64,000 nt of DNA, from contig NZ_KV917376.1 of assembly GCF_002019695.1 (NCBI RefSeq), positions 2,410,670 through 2,474,669 on the forward strand. Reading direction: 5' to 3'. This document shows, piece after piece, positions 2,938 to 12,719 of the stretch. The stretch comes from Evansella clarkii. GTDB lineage: Bacteria > Bacillota > Bacilli > Bacillales > Salisediminibacteriaceae. Both the position numbers and the translations under genes were made by a program. Below the pieces are notes generated by a model. That model saw only the letters and a list, made by a program, of their open reading frames with translations, was not told the origin of the DNA and made no database searches. How positions within the stretch are numbered: the stretch's first letter is position 1; each line of letters begins with the position of its first letter.

Positions 2938-3963
2938 ATGACTAAAATAGGTATTAATGGGTTCGGGAGAATAGGGCGAATGGTTTTCAGAAAGGCAATG
3001 AACGATCCGGAGCTTCAAATCGCTGCTATTAATGCGAGCTACCCTGCGGAAACATTAGCACATTTGATTAAATATGATACAATTCACGGACCGTTTTTCG
3101 GAGATGTCAAAGTAGAAGACGAGAAACTGATTGTGAATGGTAAAACAATTGAGCTCTTTCGAACAAGAGATCCTAAAGAGCTGCCTTGGGGAAAAATTGG
3201 CGTTGAAATCGTCGTGGAGGCGACAGGCAAGTTCAACTCCAGAGATAAAGCTGCTCTCCATCTGGAGTCGGGAGCTAAGAAAGTTGTTATTACTGCCCCT
3301 GGGAAAGACGAAGATATCACAGTTGTGTACGGAGTGAACGAACAGGAATACGACCCTGAAAAGCACCACGTCATTTCCAATGCATCATGTACTACGAACT
3401 GCCTTGCTCCAGTAGCAAAAGTTCTTAACGATAAATTCGGAATTGAATCAGGTCTCATGACTACAGTGCATTCTTATACAAACGACCAGAAAAACATAGA
3501 CAACCCGCATAAAGACCTCCGCCGTGCAAGAGCATGCGGCCAGTCAATCATCCCAACTACCACGGGTGCCGCGAAAGCGCTGTCAAAAGTACTTCCGGAA
3601 ATGGAAGGGAAGCTTAACGGTATGGCATTAAGGGTGCCGACTCCTAATGTTTCATTAGTTGACCTTGTAGTTGACCTTGAAAAGGATGTTACAGCTGAAG
3701 AGGTTAATGAAGTATTAAAGCAAGCGGCTGAAACTGAAATGGCCGGCATCCTGGCTTATACGGAGGAACCTCTTGTATCCATTGATTTCAACGGAAACGA
3801 AAATTCCTCCATTATTGATGGGCAGTCTACAATGGTGATTAATGACCGCCAGGTGAAAGTTCTGGCCTGGTATGACAATGAATGGGGATATTCCTGCCGT
3901 GTGGTAAACCTTATTCAGCTTGTGGCACAAAACTTAAGAAATGAATCTGGTGTCAGGGCATAA
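2938..3963 (+). CDS. gapB: Glyceraldehyde-3-phosphate dehydrogenase, gluconeogenic type
   Basis: Interconverts glyceraldehyde-3-phosphate and 1,3-bisphosphoglycerate; the GapB paralogue works in the gluconeogenic direction with NADP(H) preference. The 341-residue protein starts with the Rossmann motif INGFGRIGR; the catalytic Cys is residue 151 within SNASCTTNCL and the helper His follows in TTVHSYTNDQ. The ATG at 2938 is preceded by GGAAGGGG. Assignment to GapB rather than the glycolytic GapA rests on the position before speD, nrdR and dnaB, the same as in B. subtilis, and on the CcpN-like operators in its promoter. A hairpin terminator follows. Confidence 0.93.
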   Translation: MTKIGINGFGRIGRMVFRKAMNDPELQIAAINASYPAETLAHLIKYDTIHGPFFGDVKVEDEKLIVNGKTIELFRTRDPKELPWGKIGVEIVVEATGKFNSRDKAALHLESGAKKVVITAPGKDEDITVVYGVNEQEYDPEKHHVISNASCTTNCLAPVAKVLNDKFGIESGLMTTVHSYTNDQKNIDNPHKDLRRARACGQSIIPTTTGAAKALSKVLPEMEGKLNGMALRVPTPNVSLVDLVVDLEKDVTAEEVNEVLKQAAETEMAGILAYTEEPLVSIDFNGNENSSIIDGQSTMVINDRQVKVLAWYDNEWGYSCRVVNLIQLVAQNLRNESGVRA

Positions 3964-8424: not shown

Positions 8425-8572
8425 CGGAATATCTTCCGCTAATCTGCCGGATTCCCATGTTTTTTACAAGCAAAATTATCTTCTTGTATGTTACGATAGA
8501 ATAAGTTTAAGTTTATTAGTTGTAAGAGTCTGTAAGTTTTCCGATACTAGTTTCAAAAATGGGGGAGAGGCA

Positions 8573-9682
8573 ATGAGTATTGATGCGATTTTAGACCGTG
8601 CCCTTAATGGAGAGCGAATCTCTGTAGAGGATGCCGTTCGTTTATATGAAAGTGATGAAATTGAAAAAATGGGTGCTGTGGCTAATGAAATCATGAAAAA
8701 ATGGCATCCGGAACCAGTGACTACGTTTGTTATAGGCAGAAATGTAAACTACACAAACTTCTGCGATACATACTGTCGTTTCTGTGCTTTTTACCGGCCG
8801 CCGGGACATGAAGAAGGCTATGTACTTGATAATGAAGAGATTTTCAAGAAAATCCAGGAAACAATTGATATAGGCGGAACAGAAATTTTAATGCAGGGCG
8901 GCACAAACCCTGATCTGCCATTCAGCTACTATACTGATCTTCTCAAAGATATTAAAAAACGTTTTCCAAATATAACAATGCATTCATTTTCACCTGCAGA
9001 AATATATAAAATGGCAGAAGTTTCCGGCCTGCCGCTGGAAGAAGTACTTCGCCAGCTTCATGAAGCAGGTCTTGATTCCCTGCCAGGCGGTGGTGCCGAG
9101 ATCCTCGACAACCGTACAAGAAAACGAATCAGCCGCCTCAAAGGCACGTGGGAAGAATGGATTGACTGCATGAAAACAGCTAAAAAAGTAGGCATGCATG
9201 GTACAGCCACGATGGTTATCGGCTTCGGAGAAACTTTCGAAGAGCGTGCCCTGCACTTGCAGCGTGTTCGTGATGCTCAAGATGAAACTGGCTGTTTCCT
9301 TGCATATATTTCCTGGCTCTTCCAGCCGGATAACACAAATATGAAAGCTGAAAAACTTACGCCGGAAGACTATTTGAAGAACGTTGCTATTTCCAGAATA
9401 TTTCTTGATAATATTCCTAACTTCCAGTCTTCATGGGTAACAATGGGACCAGAAGTAGGCAAAAAATCCCTTTCCTTCGGCTGTAACGATTTCGGAAGCA
9501 CCATGATTGAAGAAAACGTTGTTTCCGCTGCCGGGGCAACACACAAGGTTAACACCAACCTTATTCTTCGCCTGCTCCGTGAAGCTGGTAAGGTACCAGC
9601 CCAGCGTGATACAAAATACAACATCATCCGCAAATTCGAGGACGAAGAAACAGCAGAAAAAGACTTCATCATGCAAAACTAG
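8573..9682 (+). CDS. mqnC: Cyclic dehypoxanthinyl futalosine synthase (MqnC), radical SAM
   Basis: Radical SAM enzyme that cyclises dehypoxanthine futalosine in the futalosine route to menaquinone. The 369-residue protein has the cluster-binding CDTYCRFCAFYR motif (Cx3Cx2C) preceded by GRNVNYTNF, which is the signature of the MqnC/MqnE group; length and the C-terminal SFGCNDFGSTMIEENVV segment fit MqnC better than MqnE. B. subtilis makes menaquinone through the chorismate-MenFDHCEB route, so its presence separates this organism from that species. No other mqn gene is in the window. ATG start follows GGGGGAGAGG. A terminator follows. The split between MqnC and its paralogues is by motif memory, not by search. 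Confidence 0.85.
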   Translation: MSIDAILDRALNGERISVEDAVRLYESDEIEKMGAVANEIMKKWHPEPVTTFVIGRNVNYTNFCDTYCRFCAFYRPPGHEEGYVLDNEEIFKKIQETIDIGGTEILMQGGTNPDLPFSYYTDLLKDIKKRFPNITMHSFSPAEIYKMAEVSGLPLEEVLRQLHEAGLDSLPGGGAEILDNRTRKRISRLKGTWEEWIDCMKTAKKVGMHGTATMVIGFGETFEERALHLQRVRDAQDETGCFLAYISWLFQPDNTNMKAEKLTPEDYLKNVAISRIFLDNIPNFQSSWVTMGPEVGKKSLSFGCNDFGSTMIEENVVSAAGATHKVNTNLILRLLREAGKVPAQRDTKYNIIRKFEDEETAEKDFIMQN

Positions 9683-9708
9683 TATTAATACAGTGAAGAA
9701 CCCCCGTG

Positions 9709-9735
9709 CCCCCGTTGGAGGCAACGGGGGTTTTT
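9709..9735 (+). terminator. Terminator after mqnC
   Basis: CCCCCGTTG, loop GAGG, CAACGGGGG, then TTTTT: a 9-bp perfect stem. Confidence 0.9.
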
Positions 9736-9769
9736 ATATACAGGTGGATGTTCGGGTGAATTTGGAAGC

Positions 9770-9838
9770 TTGGGTTTGGTTCATGGAACGGGGGTTCCTG
9801 GAACCGAGGTGCCAGGATAAAAAACGTAGGAAACGGAA
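9770..9838 (+). repeat. Degenerate partial unit ahead of the 101-bp array
   Basis: GGTTCATGGAACG...GGTGCCAGGATAA and a following AAACGGAAGT resemble the second half of the 101-bp unit but with many changes; read as a decayed edge of the array. Confidence 0.5.
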
Positions 9839-10444
9839 GTAAAAAGGAGCCAGCCAACGTGGCACCCGTGAACCGGGTACGAATGAACCCGGTCCATCGG
9901 TGCCAGGTTAAGAGAGCGAGAATAAAAGAGAAAACGGGAGTAAAAAGGAGCCATCCAACGTGGCACTTGTGAACCGGGTCCAAGTGAACCCGGTCCATTG
10001 GTGCCAGGTTAAGAGCACGAGAATAAGCAAGAAAACAGGAGTAAAAAGGAGCCAGCCAACGTGGCACTTGTGAACCGGGTACGAATGAACCCGGTCCATT
10101 GGTGCCAGGTTAAGAGCACGAGAATAAACGAGAAAACGGGAGTAAAAAGGAGCCATCCAACGTGGCACCCGTGAACCGGGTACGAATGAACCCGGTCCAT
10201 CGGTGCCAGGTTAAGAGCACGAGAATTAGCGAGAAAAAGGGAGTAAAAAGGAGCCAGTCAACGTGGCACTTGTGAACCGGGTACGAATGAACCCGGTCCA
10301 TCAGTGCCAGGATAAGCGAGTGAGAATAAGCAAGAAAACAGGAGTAAAAAGGAGCCAGCCAACGTGGCACCCGTGAACCGGGTACGAATGAACCCGGTCC
10401 ATCGGTGCCAGGTTAAGAGAATGAGAATTAGCGAGAAAAACTGA
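9839..10444 (+). repeat. Six tandem 101-bp palindromic (REP/BIME-like) repeats
   Basis: Units begin with GTAAAAAGGAGCCA at 9839, 9940, 10041, 10142, 10243 and 10344, an exact 101-base period. Each carries a palindrome: GGCACY arm, inner ACCGGGT/ACCCGGT stem with a short loop, then RGTGCC. The outer stem keeps pairing across units (C-G in units 1, 4 and 6; T-G in 2 and 3; T-A in 5). There are no spacers, so it is not a CRISPR array. It ends about 100 bases from the end of a RAYT transposase gene. Minus-strand open frames here are artefacts of the repeat. Confidence 0.95.
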
Positions 10445-10548
10445 GAAAGCTGAAACATTTCAACCTGGCATTTCAATTAACCGCCCAGTATTAACCATCA
10501 ACAAGTCTGCTATTTCTAATTATAAAAGAGACTTCCTGAGCTACCTTT

Positions 10549-11097
10549 TTAATACATACACCATTCAACATATTTTTGTTTTTTCTGGTTTTCAGACCCT
10601 GGAAAATAGTTGAGTACCGGATTCATATTCAAAAATGAAGGAGGCGGAGGTGAGTTGAAATGAAAATAATAAGAATAACTGCTCCAAGGGTAGTTTTCAG
10701 GTTTTTTTGTTATGTTAGCGTGGATTGGATTAAAGTGGATGTAGCGGCTTAAATGGAGCATGCTTCGTTGATCCGTAATAGGTTTGGCTGAAAAACGGTT
10801 TTCAAAAACTGGGCCACGAAGATTGTAAGTTTTATTAAAATGAACAGCATATAATCTGTTTAAAAAACTCATAAATTCGGTGATCAGTACTTCTTTAGAC
10901 TGGAGTTGAAAGTGATAGTGGGTTTTCATGAGGCAATAGGAGGTAATGGTGACAGGGTATTTGAGTGAGGAACGTTCGACGAGCTGAATAAAAAACTGAT
11001 AGTCTTCGGGTTTCCTGAATAAGCCTTCTTTTCTGTTTCCCCGGTTGTAAATGTGGTAATAGGTGTGGGGATTCCAGGATCTTTTAATTCTTCCCAT
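10549..11097 (-). CDS. REP-associated tyrosine transposase (RAYT, Y1/HUH family)
   Basis: The 182-residue protein is a Y1-type HUH single-strand transposase related to TnpA of IS200/IS605. Visible signatures: the N-terminal HIYNRGNRKEGLF block, the HUH motif HYHF (about residues 76-79) that binds the metal, and RYIHFNPIHANI near residue 120, whose Tyr is the probable nucleophile. Unlike IS200 it is a solitary single-copy-type gene without its own terminal hairpins, and it stands between two tandem arrays, one of which is palindromic. RAYTs of this type are known to associate with REP sequences. The gene appears intact; GGAGTGACC-type spacing upstream gives a ribosome site. Activity is inferred from intact motifs. 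Confidence 0.88.
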   Translation of the reverse strand: MGRIKRSWNPHTYYHIYNRGNRKEGLFRKPEDYQFFIQLVERSSLKYPVTITSYCLMKTHYHFQLQSKEVLITEFMSFLNRLYAVHFNKTYNLRGPVFENRFSAKPITDQRSMLHLSRYIHFNPIHANITKKPENYPWSSYSYYFHFNSPPPPSFLNMNPVLNYFPGSENQKKQKYVEWCMY

Positions 11098-11214
11098 GTG
11101 GTCACTCCTTTATATTTAATAAACTAAGTATTCCACATGTAATCATGAAACCCTTTATATAAAAAAAATTTTCCTGTAAAGAAGAATCTTATAAATAAAA
11201 CCGTCCGTAAAATC

Positions 11215-11315
11215 CCGCCTCACCTCCGACCTCCCGCACCAGCTTACAGAACTTCAGTCCCCAGGGTCCCAGCCTTCGGAGCCTCAGCTCCCAGAGCCCC
11301 CACCCCCAGTACCTA
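11215..11315. other. C-rich, strand-asymmetric tract
   Basis: The plus strand is strongly pyrimidine and C rich (repeated CCCAG, CCCCAG and GCCCCCACCCCCAG), so the minus strand has several G runs of three or more and could form a quadruplex. No open frame. It lies between the RAYT promoter side and the 42-bp array. Confidence 0.5.
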
Positions 11316-11389
11316 ACTCAAAAACTCCGCCTCACATCAAAGTGCATGCGAAGATATTCGGGCGGGGGGTGTGAATTTCATTACTCTCC

Positions 11390-11575
11390 CCACTGATCGT
11401 TACCTGAACCACCCCGGATATTAGCGCTTCTCCACTGATCGTTACCTGAACTACCCCGGATATTAGCACTTTCCCACTGATCTTTATCTGAACAACTCCC
11501 GGATGTCCCCCCCACTGAGCCTCATACGAACCAACTCAGATATTAACACCCCCAACCAACTGAACTTTCACTTTA
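11390..11575 (+). repeat. Degenerate ~42-bp tandem array resembling element A
   Basis: CCACTGA-containing units start at 11390, 11432, 11474, 11512 and (partial) 11556. The first three share CCACTGATCGTTACCTGAAC and a CGGATATTAGC block with small changes. The unit resembles the CCACTGATTGTTAGTTGAAC...CGGGATGTTAGC part of element A, and the array's right end (ACTTTCACTTTA) resembles an element A terminus. Confidence 0.75.
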
Positions 11576-11704
11576 TTTTAATAGCTAATCATAAATGCAC
11601 AGCTCATCCATATATATGTATTAGATGTTTGCAAAGAGTTGAAGCTTAAGAATCAAGTCTTGCCGAGACTCTCAACTCGACTGCACGATTGGGAGGGGCT
11701 GCCG

Positions 11705-12583
11705 TTGTTAGTTATAGAATTTAAAAATATTTCACTATGTGAGGCCTTCTATTGTCAATTGCTCCGTTCAATGGATACATACGAAGGCGTCAGGAAAAGT
11801 ATATTTACGAAACAGGAAGATGGGGAGACCAGGCTTTTTATTAATATGAATGTGCTGGACGGGGATAAGCCAGATAAAATGAAGGAAGTTGCGCTTATTT
11901 TAACAAATGTAACGATAAAAAATGTACTGCCTCTCTGGATGGAAGAGCTTCTGAGGGAAAGGTTTTATTATGAAGAGCAGTATGAAATCGATGCTATTAT
12001 GGGCCATGCAAGAGATCTTTTTTTTAACCCTCCGGAGGATGTGCCTCTGGAAACTTCATTTCTGGACTGGCAGAAGGAAATGTTTCAGCTCTATCATCAG
12101 TTTATTCAAGCTTCTATCTGCTTTTCCTTTGAGTCGTTTTTAATGTTCCGGTTCAGGAAAAACAAAGAGCAGCTTGGGGAAATTGTTGAAAAAGCAATTG
12201 ATGAATACAAGATGGAGTATGATTATCAGATTATGCTTCAGACATGCCGGGAATTTTTAAAAGATACAGTACCGAGGGTGGATACAGTCCAATTATTTCT
12301 GGAGGAAGAAGTTAAATTAGTGGATGGAAACGGAAGGCTGATCTCCAGTCAGCAAATACTCCGATGGCTCAGTGAAGAGATGTACTTTGATTCCCATCTG
12401 CCTCTTGCCAGGAGAGTTATTGGTCCTCTCGTGAGTATTTCACCCCGGAGGCTGATTATTCACCCGCGGACACATCATGAAGGATTGCTGCATACGCTCT
12501 TATCTATTTTTGAGGAGAGGGTGGAGCTGAAGAAAGAATTGGCGGGGAACAGGGGCATTGATATTCTGGCAGAAAATAATTAG
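11705..12583 (+). CDS. ytxC: Sporulation protein YtxC homologue
   Basis: Homologue of B. subtilis YtxC, a putative sporulation protein of unknown biochemical role, found directly upstream of thrS as here. The protein is soluble, mostly helical, with conserved blocks EAFYCQLLR near the N-terminus, EIDAIMGHARDLF in the middle and LISPRRLIIHP-like residues (SISPRRLIIHP) near the end. The frame is open from a TTG at 11639, but that codon lacks a ribosome site; the TTG at 11705 has GGGAGGGG with good spacing and gives 292 residues, close to the B. subtilis length, so it is preferred. Confidence 0.8.
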   Translation: MLVIEFKNISLCEAFYCQLLRSMDTYEGVRKSIFTKQEDGETRLFINMNVLDGDKPDKMKEVALILTNVTIKNVLPLWMEELLRERFYYEEQYEIDAIMGHARDLFFNPPEDVPLETSFLDWQKEMFQLYHQFIQASICFSFESFLMFRFRKNKEQLGEIVEKAIDEYKMEYDYQIMLQTCREFLKDTVPRVDTVQLFLEEEVKLVDGNGRLISSQQILRWLSEEMYFDSHLPLARRVIGPLVSISPRRLIIHPRTHHEGLLHTLLSIFEERVELKKELAGNRGIDILAENN

Positions 12584-12719
12584 CGAAAAACCCCGGGGGA
12601 TAATCTCAAATGAAATAAAAGCAATAATTTGAAAACGGACAACAGTTCGGTGAAAACCTTCGTAAAAGGAGTTTATTTAAGCAAAGGCTTGATTTTCATC
12701 CGGGGGATTATTATAATAC

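Follow-up and report, generated by a model that had tools for sequence, protein, structure and literature searches.

The tandem array and the RAYT gene

The window, by which we mean the whole 64-kb stretch of DNA that was analyzed and by which all positions are numbered, carries a tandem array of 101-bp units and, 110 bp from the end of the array, the stop codon of an intact gene for a RAYT-type Y1/HUH transposase (Table 1). The initial annotation had described six palindromic units of 101 bases about 100 bases from this stop, at positions 9839 to 11097, which fits the array and the gene as measured: TRF gave a period of 101, 6.0 copies, 89% matches, 0% indels, and a score of 973, and reading of the units showed six copies in direct, head-to-tail order. 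Each unit consists of a 46-nt hairpin and a 55-nt linker, and each contains an interrupted palindrome with outer arms TGGCAC...GTGCCA and inner arms ACCGGGT...ACCCGGT. Compared with dinucleotide-shuffled sequences, the consensus unit folded with a z score of -2.7 for the C/T strand and -2.9 for the purine strand. The degenerate seventh unit has a counterpart at the matching place in the sister species, G003 (the window's own genome being G000). Within the hairpin lies a 15-bp direct repeat; unit spacings of 86 and 131 elsewhere equal 101 plus or minus multiples of 15, and 15-bp repeats also adjoin RAYT genes of the same clade (L034, L040, and L082; for the clade, see below).

Table 1. Coordinates of the features at the RAYT locus
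Feature	Positions	Strand	Basis or location
Tandem array, six 101-bp units	9831..10439	purine-rich strand +, pyrimidine-rich strand - (the RAYT coding strand)	TRF and direct reading
Seventh, degenerate terminal unit, GGTTCC palindrome type	9763..9814		array end far from the RAYT
RAYT-type Y1/HUH transposase gene, 182 aa	10549..11097	minus	intact ORF, motifs, Pfam, fold
42-bp tandem repeat, 2.8 copies	11387-11504		5' of the RAYT gene, within the segment differing from G003
Segment differing from G003 (array, RAYT, and upstream flank), read as a replaced cassette	9843..11506		blastn

Several other identities were rejected for the window repeats. They are not a CRISPR array, as there are no unique spacers and the whole 101-bp unit, linker included, repeats at 89%. 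A coding repeat was discarded because 101 is not divisible by three and the ORFs across the array are 86 to 132 aa long, and a known structured RNA was discarded because the sole Rfam match in window positions 9400 to 11800 had an E value of 0.92 and 19.8 bits against a cut-off of 53. REPINs and BIMEs are likewise dispersed REP-based elements served by a RAYT, but they are built of inverted pairs, whereas the units here are in direct order.

The reading of the neighboring gene as an intact Y1/HUH transposase also held: its 182-aa ORF contains both HYH and RYIHFNP motifs and matches Pfam Y1_Tnp (E value, 9e-9). Residues H60, H62, and Y119 were invariant in a 44-sequence alignment and also among 15 close sequences, which gives the protein an HUH motif and a single catalytic tyrosine. 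The NCBIfam equivalog NF047646 (REP_Tyr_transpos) scored 56.4 bits (E value, 2.9e-15), under its curated cut-off of 80 bits, so that the window RAYT is a relative of this equivalog and not a member. Sequence searches of solved structures returned no relative at an E value of 0.001, and a fold comparison was therefore needed. The AlphaFold2 model (44 sequences; mean pLDDT, 95) had as its best PDB match 4ER8, the Escherichia coli REP-associated transposase (RAYT) bound to a REP hairpin (E value, 5.7e-8; TM, 0.68/0.75), which ranked above the IS608 and ISDra2 chains and identifies a RAYT fold. Together with an array strand that mostly follows replication (see below), this top match suggests that the window RAYT may recognize its hairpin as a single strand.

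Arrays beside related RAYT genes

We surveyed 129 RAYT loci from the best matches in 60 relatives, 35 family genomes, and 397 order genomes, a set that leans to close relatives because it was drawn from best matches. It comprised 38 of the 44 family matches (six were left out), 80 further listed loci, and 11 order loci; L036 was excluded as the same locus as L094. Arrays with a period of at least 40 bp started within 300 bp 3' of the RAYT stop at nine of these loci. The other 120, including the three other RAYTs of the window's own genome (L076 to L078), had no such array within that distance, and the only array of this period ending within 300 bp 5' of a RAYT was the window's own 42-mer (1/129). 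Seven of the nine 3' arrays, in G000, G003, G004, G007, G010, G020, and G033, had periods of 89 to 103 bp and 5.0 to 16.5 copies. In a quick RAYT tree of 127 rows, from which L039 and L156, with internal stops, had been left out, a single clade of 13 rows with an SH-aLRT of 91 (not starred) contained all seven; one clade row, L053, has a very long end branch and an unsure placement. Thus, when RAYT orthologues were checked for arrays, as had been proposed at the outset, same-clade relatives did have them, with 7 of 13 clade rows carrying an array of 89 to 103 bp.

The unit sequences differed among the seven genomes, with an outer stem common to G000 and G003. Across the seven consensus units, eight CTC recurrences were counted at lag 10, where the shuffles averaged 0.45 (0/1000 shuffles), six at lag 20 and four at lag 6 (0/1000 shuffles each), and five at lag 16 (1/1000 shuffles). 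The pyrimidine-rich linker strand was the RAYT coding strand in nine of nine RAYT-adjacent arrays. A linker pattern is thus kept while the palindromes differ.

On the purine strand, six of seven RAYT-adjacent arrays had a GT[AG]G tetramer ahead of the stem in all or part of their units, as counted from stem starts that were picked by eye. In the window, GTGG stood before CAC in 6/6 units on the purine strand and in 0/6 on the other strand (CTGG), as in GTAG-type REPs, although the TGG of this tetramer also pairs. The purine-strand counts were 5/6 units in G003 and 4/7 in G004. Among dispersed units with a whole closing arm, purine-strand GTGG was present in 23/35 (G000) and 14/27 (G003); on the other strand, it was present in 8/58 and 7/79 units, respectively. 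Two findings count against reading the locus as a REP/RAYT system: the G007 array, the longest beside a RAYT, had no GT[AG]G foot, and the G033 and G010 arrays had the tetramer on both strands.

Some further repeats were seen near RAYT genes. In another clade, L098 (G065) carries a 52-bp tandem array at 3167 to 3382 in RAYT orientation, 42 bp past the RAYT stop, with a small hairpin and a pyrimidine-rich linker, perhaps an independent case. At L088 (G020), a 52-bp array of 14.3 copies lies at 878 to 1617 in RAYT orientation, 1.4 kb 5' of a long RAYT. The RAYTs of L033 (G008) and L086 (G024), from two genera, by eye adjoin what appears to be the same ATP-synthase gene, and each has one or two lone palindromes in its 3' flank.

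Dispersed units and their co-occurrence with the RAYT clade

The whole-genome search for the palindrome recommended in the initial annotation turned up dispersed loci: the window unit had 81 matches in its own genome at E values of up to 10, both strands counted, and many of them lay 101 bp apart. Units of the window family were present at 24 of the 25 G000 loci that were fetched and examined, a count that leaves out weak matches at about 14.5, 880.6, 2738.8, and 4982.9 kb, and 16 of these loci were multi-unit, mostly with 101-bp spacing. In G003, 23 of 25 loci examined had units (16 with two or more), and in G007, arrays of its own 91-bp unit were found at 11 of 12; L252, L270, and L277 had no unit, and L258 had no array. 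The palindromes therefore occur both beside the RAYT gene and dispersed in the genome, as expected of a REPtron.

We searched for the units of G000, G003, G007, and G033 across genomes, leaving out those of G004, G010, and G020, and every relative in which one of the four was found also has a RAYT of this clade. Among nine genus genomes, the window unit was confined to G000 and G003, each of which has a clade RAYT; among 397 order genomes, it was seen in G000 alone (the draw was without G003, and two candidates per genome were scored); a palindrome in RAYT-less genomes, which would have spoken against the link, was thus not seen in the genomes searched. The G003 unit was found in the same two of nine genus genomes, while the G007 unit had 91 matches in G007 and 0 in the eight other genus genomes. 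In genus g3 (eight genomes), the G033 unit had 38 matches in G033, 20 in G010, 28 in G020, and 2, only 26 to 28 nt long, in G024, and these are the four genomes of the genus with a clade RAYT. It had 0 matches in G017, G027, G029, and G031, three of which had no RAYT match at E values of up to 0.001, the RAYT of G029 being from another clade. Unit presence in this genus was thus 4/4 with a clade RAYT versus 0/4 without (p = 1/70).

Terminators were considered as a target of the units and judged too weak a candidate. A terminator-like hairpin lay within 200 nt on the 5' side of the purine strand at 8 of the 32 multi-unit arrays of G000 and G003 and on the other side at 2 of 32, compared with a mean of 0.8 and a maximum of 4 in random windows, an enrichment such as gene 3' ends would give. 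Two dispersed array loci of G000 adjoin a 266- to 267-bp tandem repeat of 2.4 copies, at L008 positions 2224 to 2852 (about 1.12 Mb) and L017 positions 1774 to 2402 (about 1.07 Mb), that by eye resembles 5S rRNA with its flanks.

Orientation of the arrays relative to replication

Replication origins were placed from dnaA (1138184 in G000, 1929121 in G003, and 484 in G007). With what we take to be the dif consensus, a dif-like site with three mismatches was found in G003 at 4591128, and none with up to three mismatches was found in G000 or G007; the G000 counterpart of the G003 site, at 3392462, has five. The termini used were the G003 site, the homologous place in G000, and the chromosome midpoint in G007. 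Of 43 multi-unit arrays, 39 had the pyrimidine-rich strand opposed to the fork (G000, 14 of 16; G003, 14 of 16; G007, 11 of 11), and the purine-rich strand therefore lies mostly on the lagging-strand template. The four exceptions represent two orthologous loci, L218/L272 (Y 0.66 to 0.67) and L229/L242, the latter weakly signed because Y is 0.53 to 0.59. In G000 and G003 the array strand was set by base composition, and since leading strands tend to be purine-rich, the counts for these two genomes may lean towards the strand rule; in G007, the same strands were obtained from matches of a 182-base query. The GC skew of the flanks agreed with the assigned fork at 11 of 11 G007 loci and, in sign, at 41 of 47 G000 and G003 loci with units, the six discordant skews all being below 0.04 in size.

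An alternative is that the arrays work as RNA, with the pyrimidine-rich, CTC-phased linkers between hairpins 3' of the RAYT serving as Rho-loading or transcript-stabilizing elements. The eight recurrences of CTC at lag 10 and the constant use of the RAYT sense strand favor it, and in other bacteria REPs are linked with mRNA decay as well as with termination. We nevertheless consider it very improbable, since most dispersed arrays follow replication and the Rfam match is under its cut-off. Moreover, at L220/L249 and L257, where the two adjacent ORFs (called mechanically, minimum 90 aa) are both head-on to the fork, the arrays keep their fork orientation, so that their relation to the genes changes.

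Cassette difference and palindrome type in sister species

The G000 and G003 sequences were 95.2% identical by blastn over window positions 8501 to 9842 and 94.0% identical over 11507 to 12591, while between 9842 and 11507 only the RAYT (71%) or unit pieces of 51 to 65 bp aligned. Likewise, the flanking proteins at this locus, MqnC and YtxC, were 99.7% and 96.8% identical, and the RAYT between them was 64% identical. Third-codon identity was 0.467 for the RAYT versus 0.85 to 0.91 for mqnC, ytxC, dnaI, and part of thrS, and it was 0.81 to 0.85 for the three other RAYT pairs. In G001, G002, G004, G007, and G008, the mqnC and ytxC matches were 209 to 306 bp apart with no RAYT match between them; the G006 stretch had no ytxC match, and the sole mqnC relative in G005 was a distant one. 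Positive selection on the RAYT was set aside, as dS was saturated and not computable, and because of this saturation we prefer replacement by a diverged RAYT allele. RAYT and array differ between the sister species as one cassette.

The palindromes beside the two RAYTs also differ, with 6/7 units of the ACCGGGT type in G000 and 6/6 of the GGTTCC type in G003. For 18 orthologous pairs of dispersed arrays, we took the balance as ACCGGGT minus GGTTCC units, with long and short GGTTCC units merged because their split was unreliable. The balance shifted towards the type of the local RAYT in 10 pairs and against it in 1, with no shift in 7 (sign test, p = 0.012); the ACCGGGT type was commoner in G000 in 6 pairs and rarer in 1, and the GGTTCC type was commoner in G003 in 9 and rarer in 1. 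Apart from the RAYT's own locus, 23 G000 loci have units, and the pairs represent 18 of them (L221, L222, L223, L237, and L276 were left out); L222/L247, with both flanks, would be a tie, and L236/L253 rests on one flank.

Because both palindrome types occur in both genomes, a lineage-specific expansion would need no RAYT, and two unrelated histories could be proposed, the RAYT cassette having been swapped by import and the palindrome types having expanded separately in each species. This explanation seems rather improbable to us, as the type in excess in each lineage is the one that adjoins its RAYT. Alternatively, copy number in the arrays may rise and fall through slippage or unequal recombination, the RAYT having produced the initial copies in the distant past or simply adjoining one array. 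Orthologous loci do differ by whole-unit copy numbers, with the period of 101 kept in most steps, and these processes can likewise alter the number of units without changing the period, which counts against a REP/RAYT reading. So do the nonindependence of orthologous arrays as data, the large number of GGTTCC-type units in G003 overall, the 120 surveyed RAYT loci free of such an array, the four arrays that deviate from the strand rule, and the six flank skews at odds with the assigned fork. However, slippage or recombination does not predict the shift to the RAYT's own type (10 of the 11 changed pairs), the co-presence of unit and clade RAYT (4/4 versus 0/4), or the fork orientation, and we regard it as unlikely.

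A proposed REP/RAYT system in Bacillales

The arrangement, co-occurrence, strand, cassette difference, and allele match are all shown by the sequence data, and they are best explained by a REP/RAYT (REPtron-like) system of Bacillales in which the hairpin cognate to a RAYT is its target in trans, via single-stranded DNA at replication forks, a reading to which we give a probability of about 0.68. The competing readings are not exclusive, and their probabilities overlap. A REPtron-like system had been suggested in the initial annotation, and the suggestion is supported by the array beside the RAYT, the dispersed units, and the arrays of clade relatives; where we searched, neither palindromes in RAYT-less genomes nor orthologues consistently free of repeats were encountered. 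We infer that recognition of single-stranded DNA, cutting, and copying of units in trans are the enzyme's part. The RAYT would bind the cognate hairpin when the purine-rich strand is single stranded on the lagging-strand template and would nick and rejoin it, and in this way whole units could be added or copied in trans at the dispersed arrays. The GT[AG]G tetramer, together with the phased linker, may determine the strand and the register.

In the main text of PMC6006769, REPs and their TnpA_REP (RAYT) enzymes form REPtrons, mostly in Proteobacteria, with subclasses 2.2, 2.4, and 2.5 and GT[AG]G feet. The window locus resembles these in its RAYT fold with 4ER8 as the best match, multicopy palindromes flanking the gene, GT[AG]G at the 5' foot, and one palindrome family per gene. 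It differs in the Bacillales host, in an array 3' of the gene whose units, 89 to 103 bp long and with phased linkers, follow one another directly head to tail, and in the lack of the tetramer in G007. The words Firmicutes and Bacillus are absent from that main text, and Clostridia appears once. IS200/IS605 elements as described there likewise combine an HUH-Y1 enzyme with subterminal hairpins and have the lagging-strand template as target, which would be the target here too. Those elements have left and right end hairpins around the gene; in the TRF output for the window locus, which shows only the 3' array and the 5' 42-mer, no such two-ended element was recognized. The tandem REP arrays of Pseudomonas fluorescens SBW25 (PMC3116915) are ordered and direct, forward on one side of the chromosome and reverse on the other, which provides a precedent for the strand rule. 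Unlike the window array, they show a GI-GIII alternation at 112/72 bp, and the parts of that paper covered here contain no RAYT-allele match or linker pattern. No REP/RAYT array case from Firmicutes was recognizable in the titles and abstract openings of the literature searched, which included few subscription papers.

The effect of RAYTs on REPs has been judged largely from association, in work on Proteobacteria. The present pair of sister species, whose RAYT-array cassettes differ at a single locus and which offer 18 orthologous pairs of dispersed loci, makes specificity in trans directly testable, and the fork-bound orientation gives a strand-specific prediction of where the enzyme acts. 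A further reading, which we regard as possible though doubtful, is that the RAYT allele rewrites arrays in trans: cognate units would be copied into pre-existing arrays at fork passage, with polarity along the array, and a swapped cassette would convert the hairpin population of the genome to the new type. If true, a single-strand nuclease would here be driving a kind of concerted evolution. Of 15 arrays with both types, 13 had their ACCGGGT units on the 5' side as read along the pyrimidine strand, the exceptions being L231 and L242, and many of these arrays are mutually orthologous.
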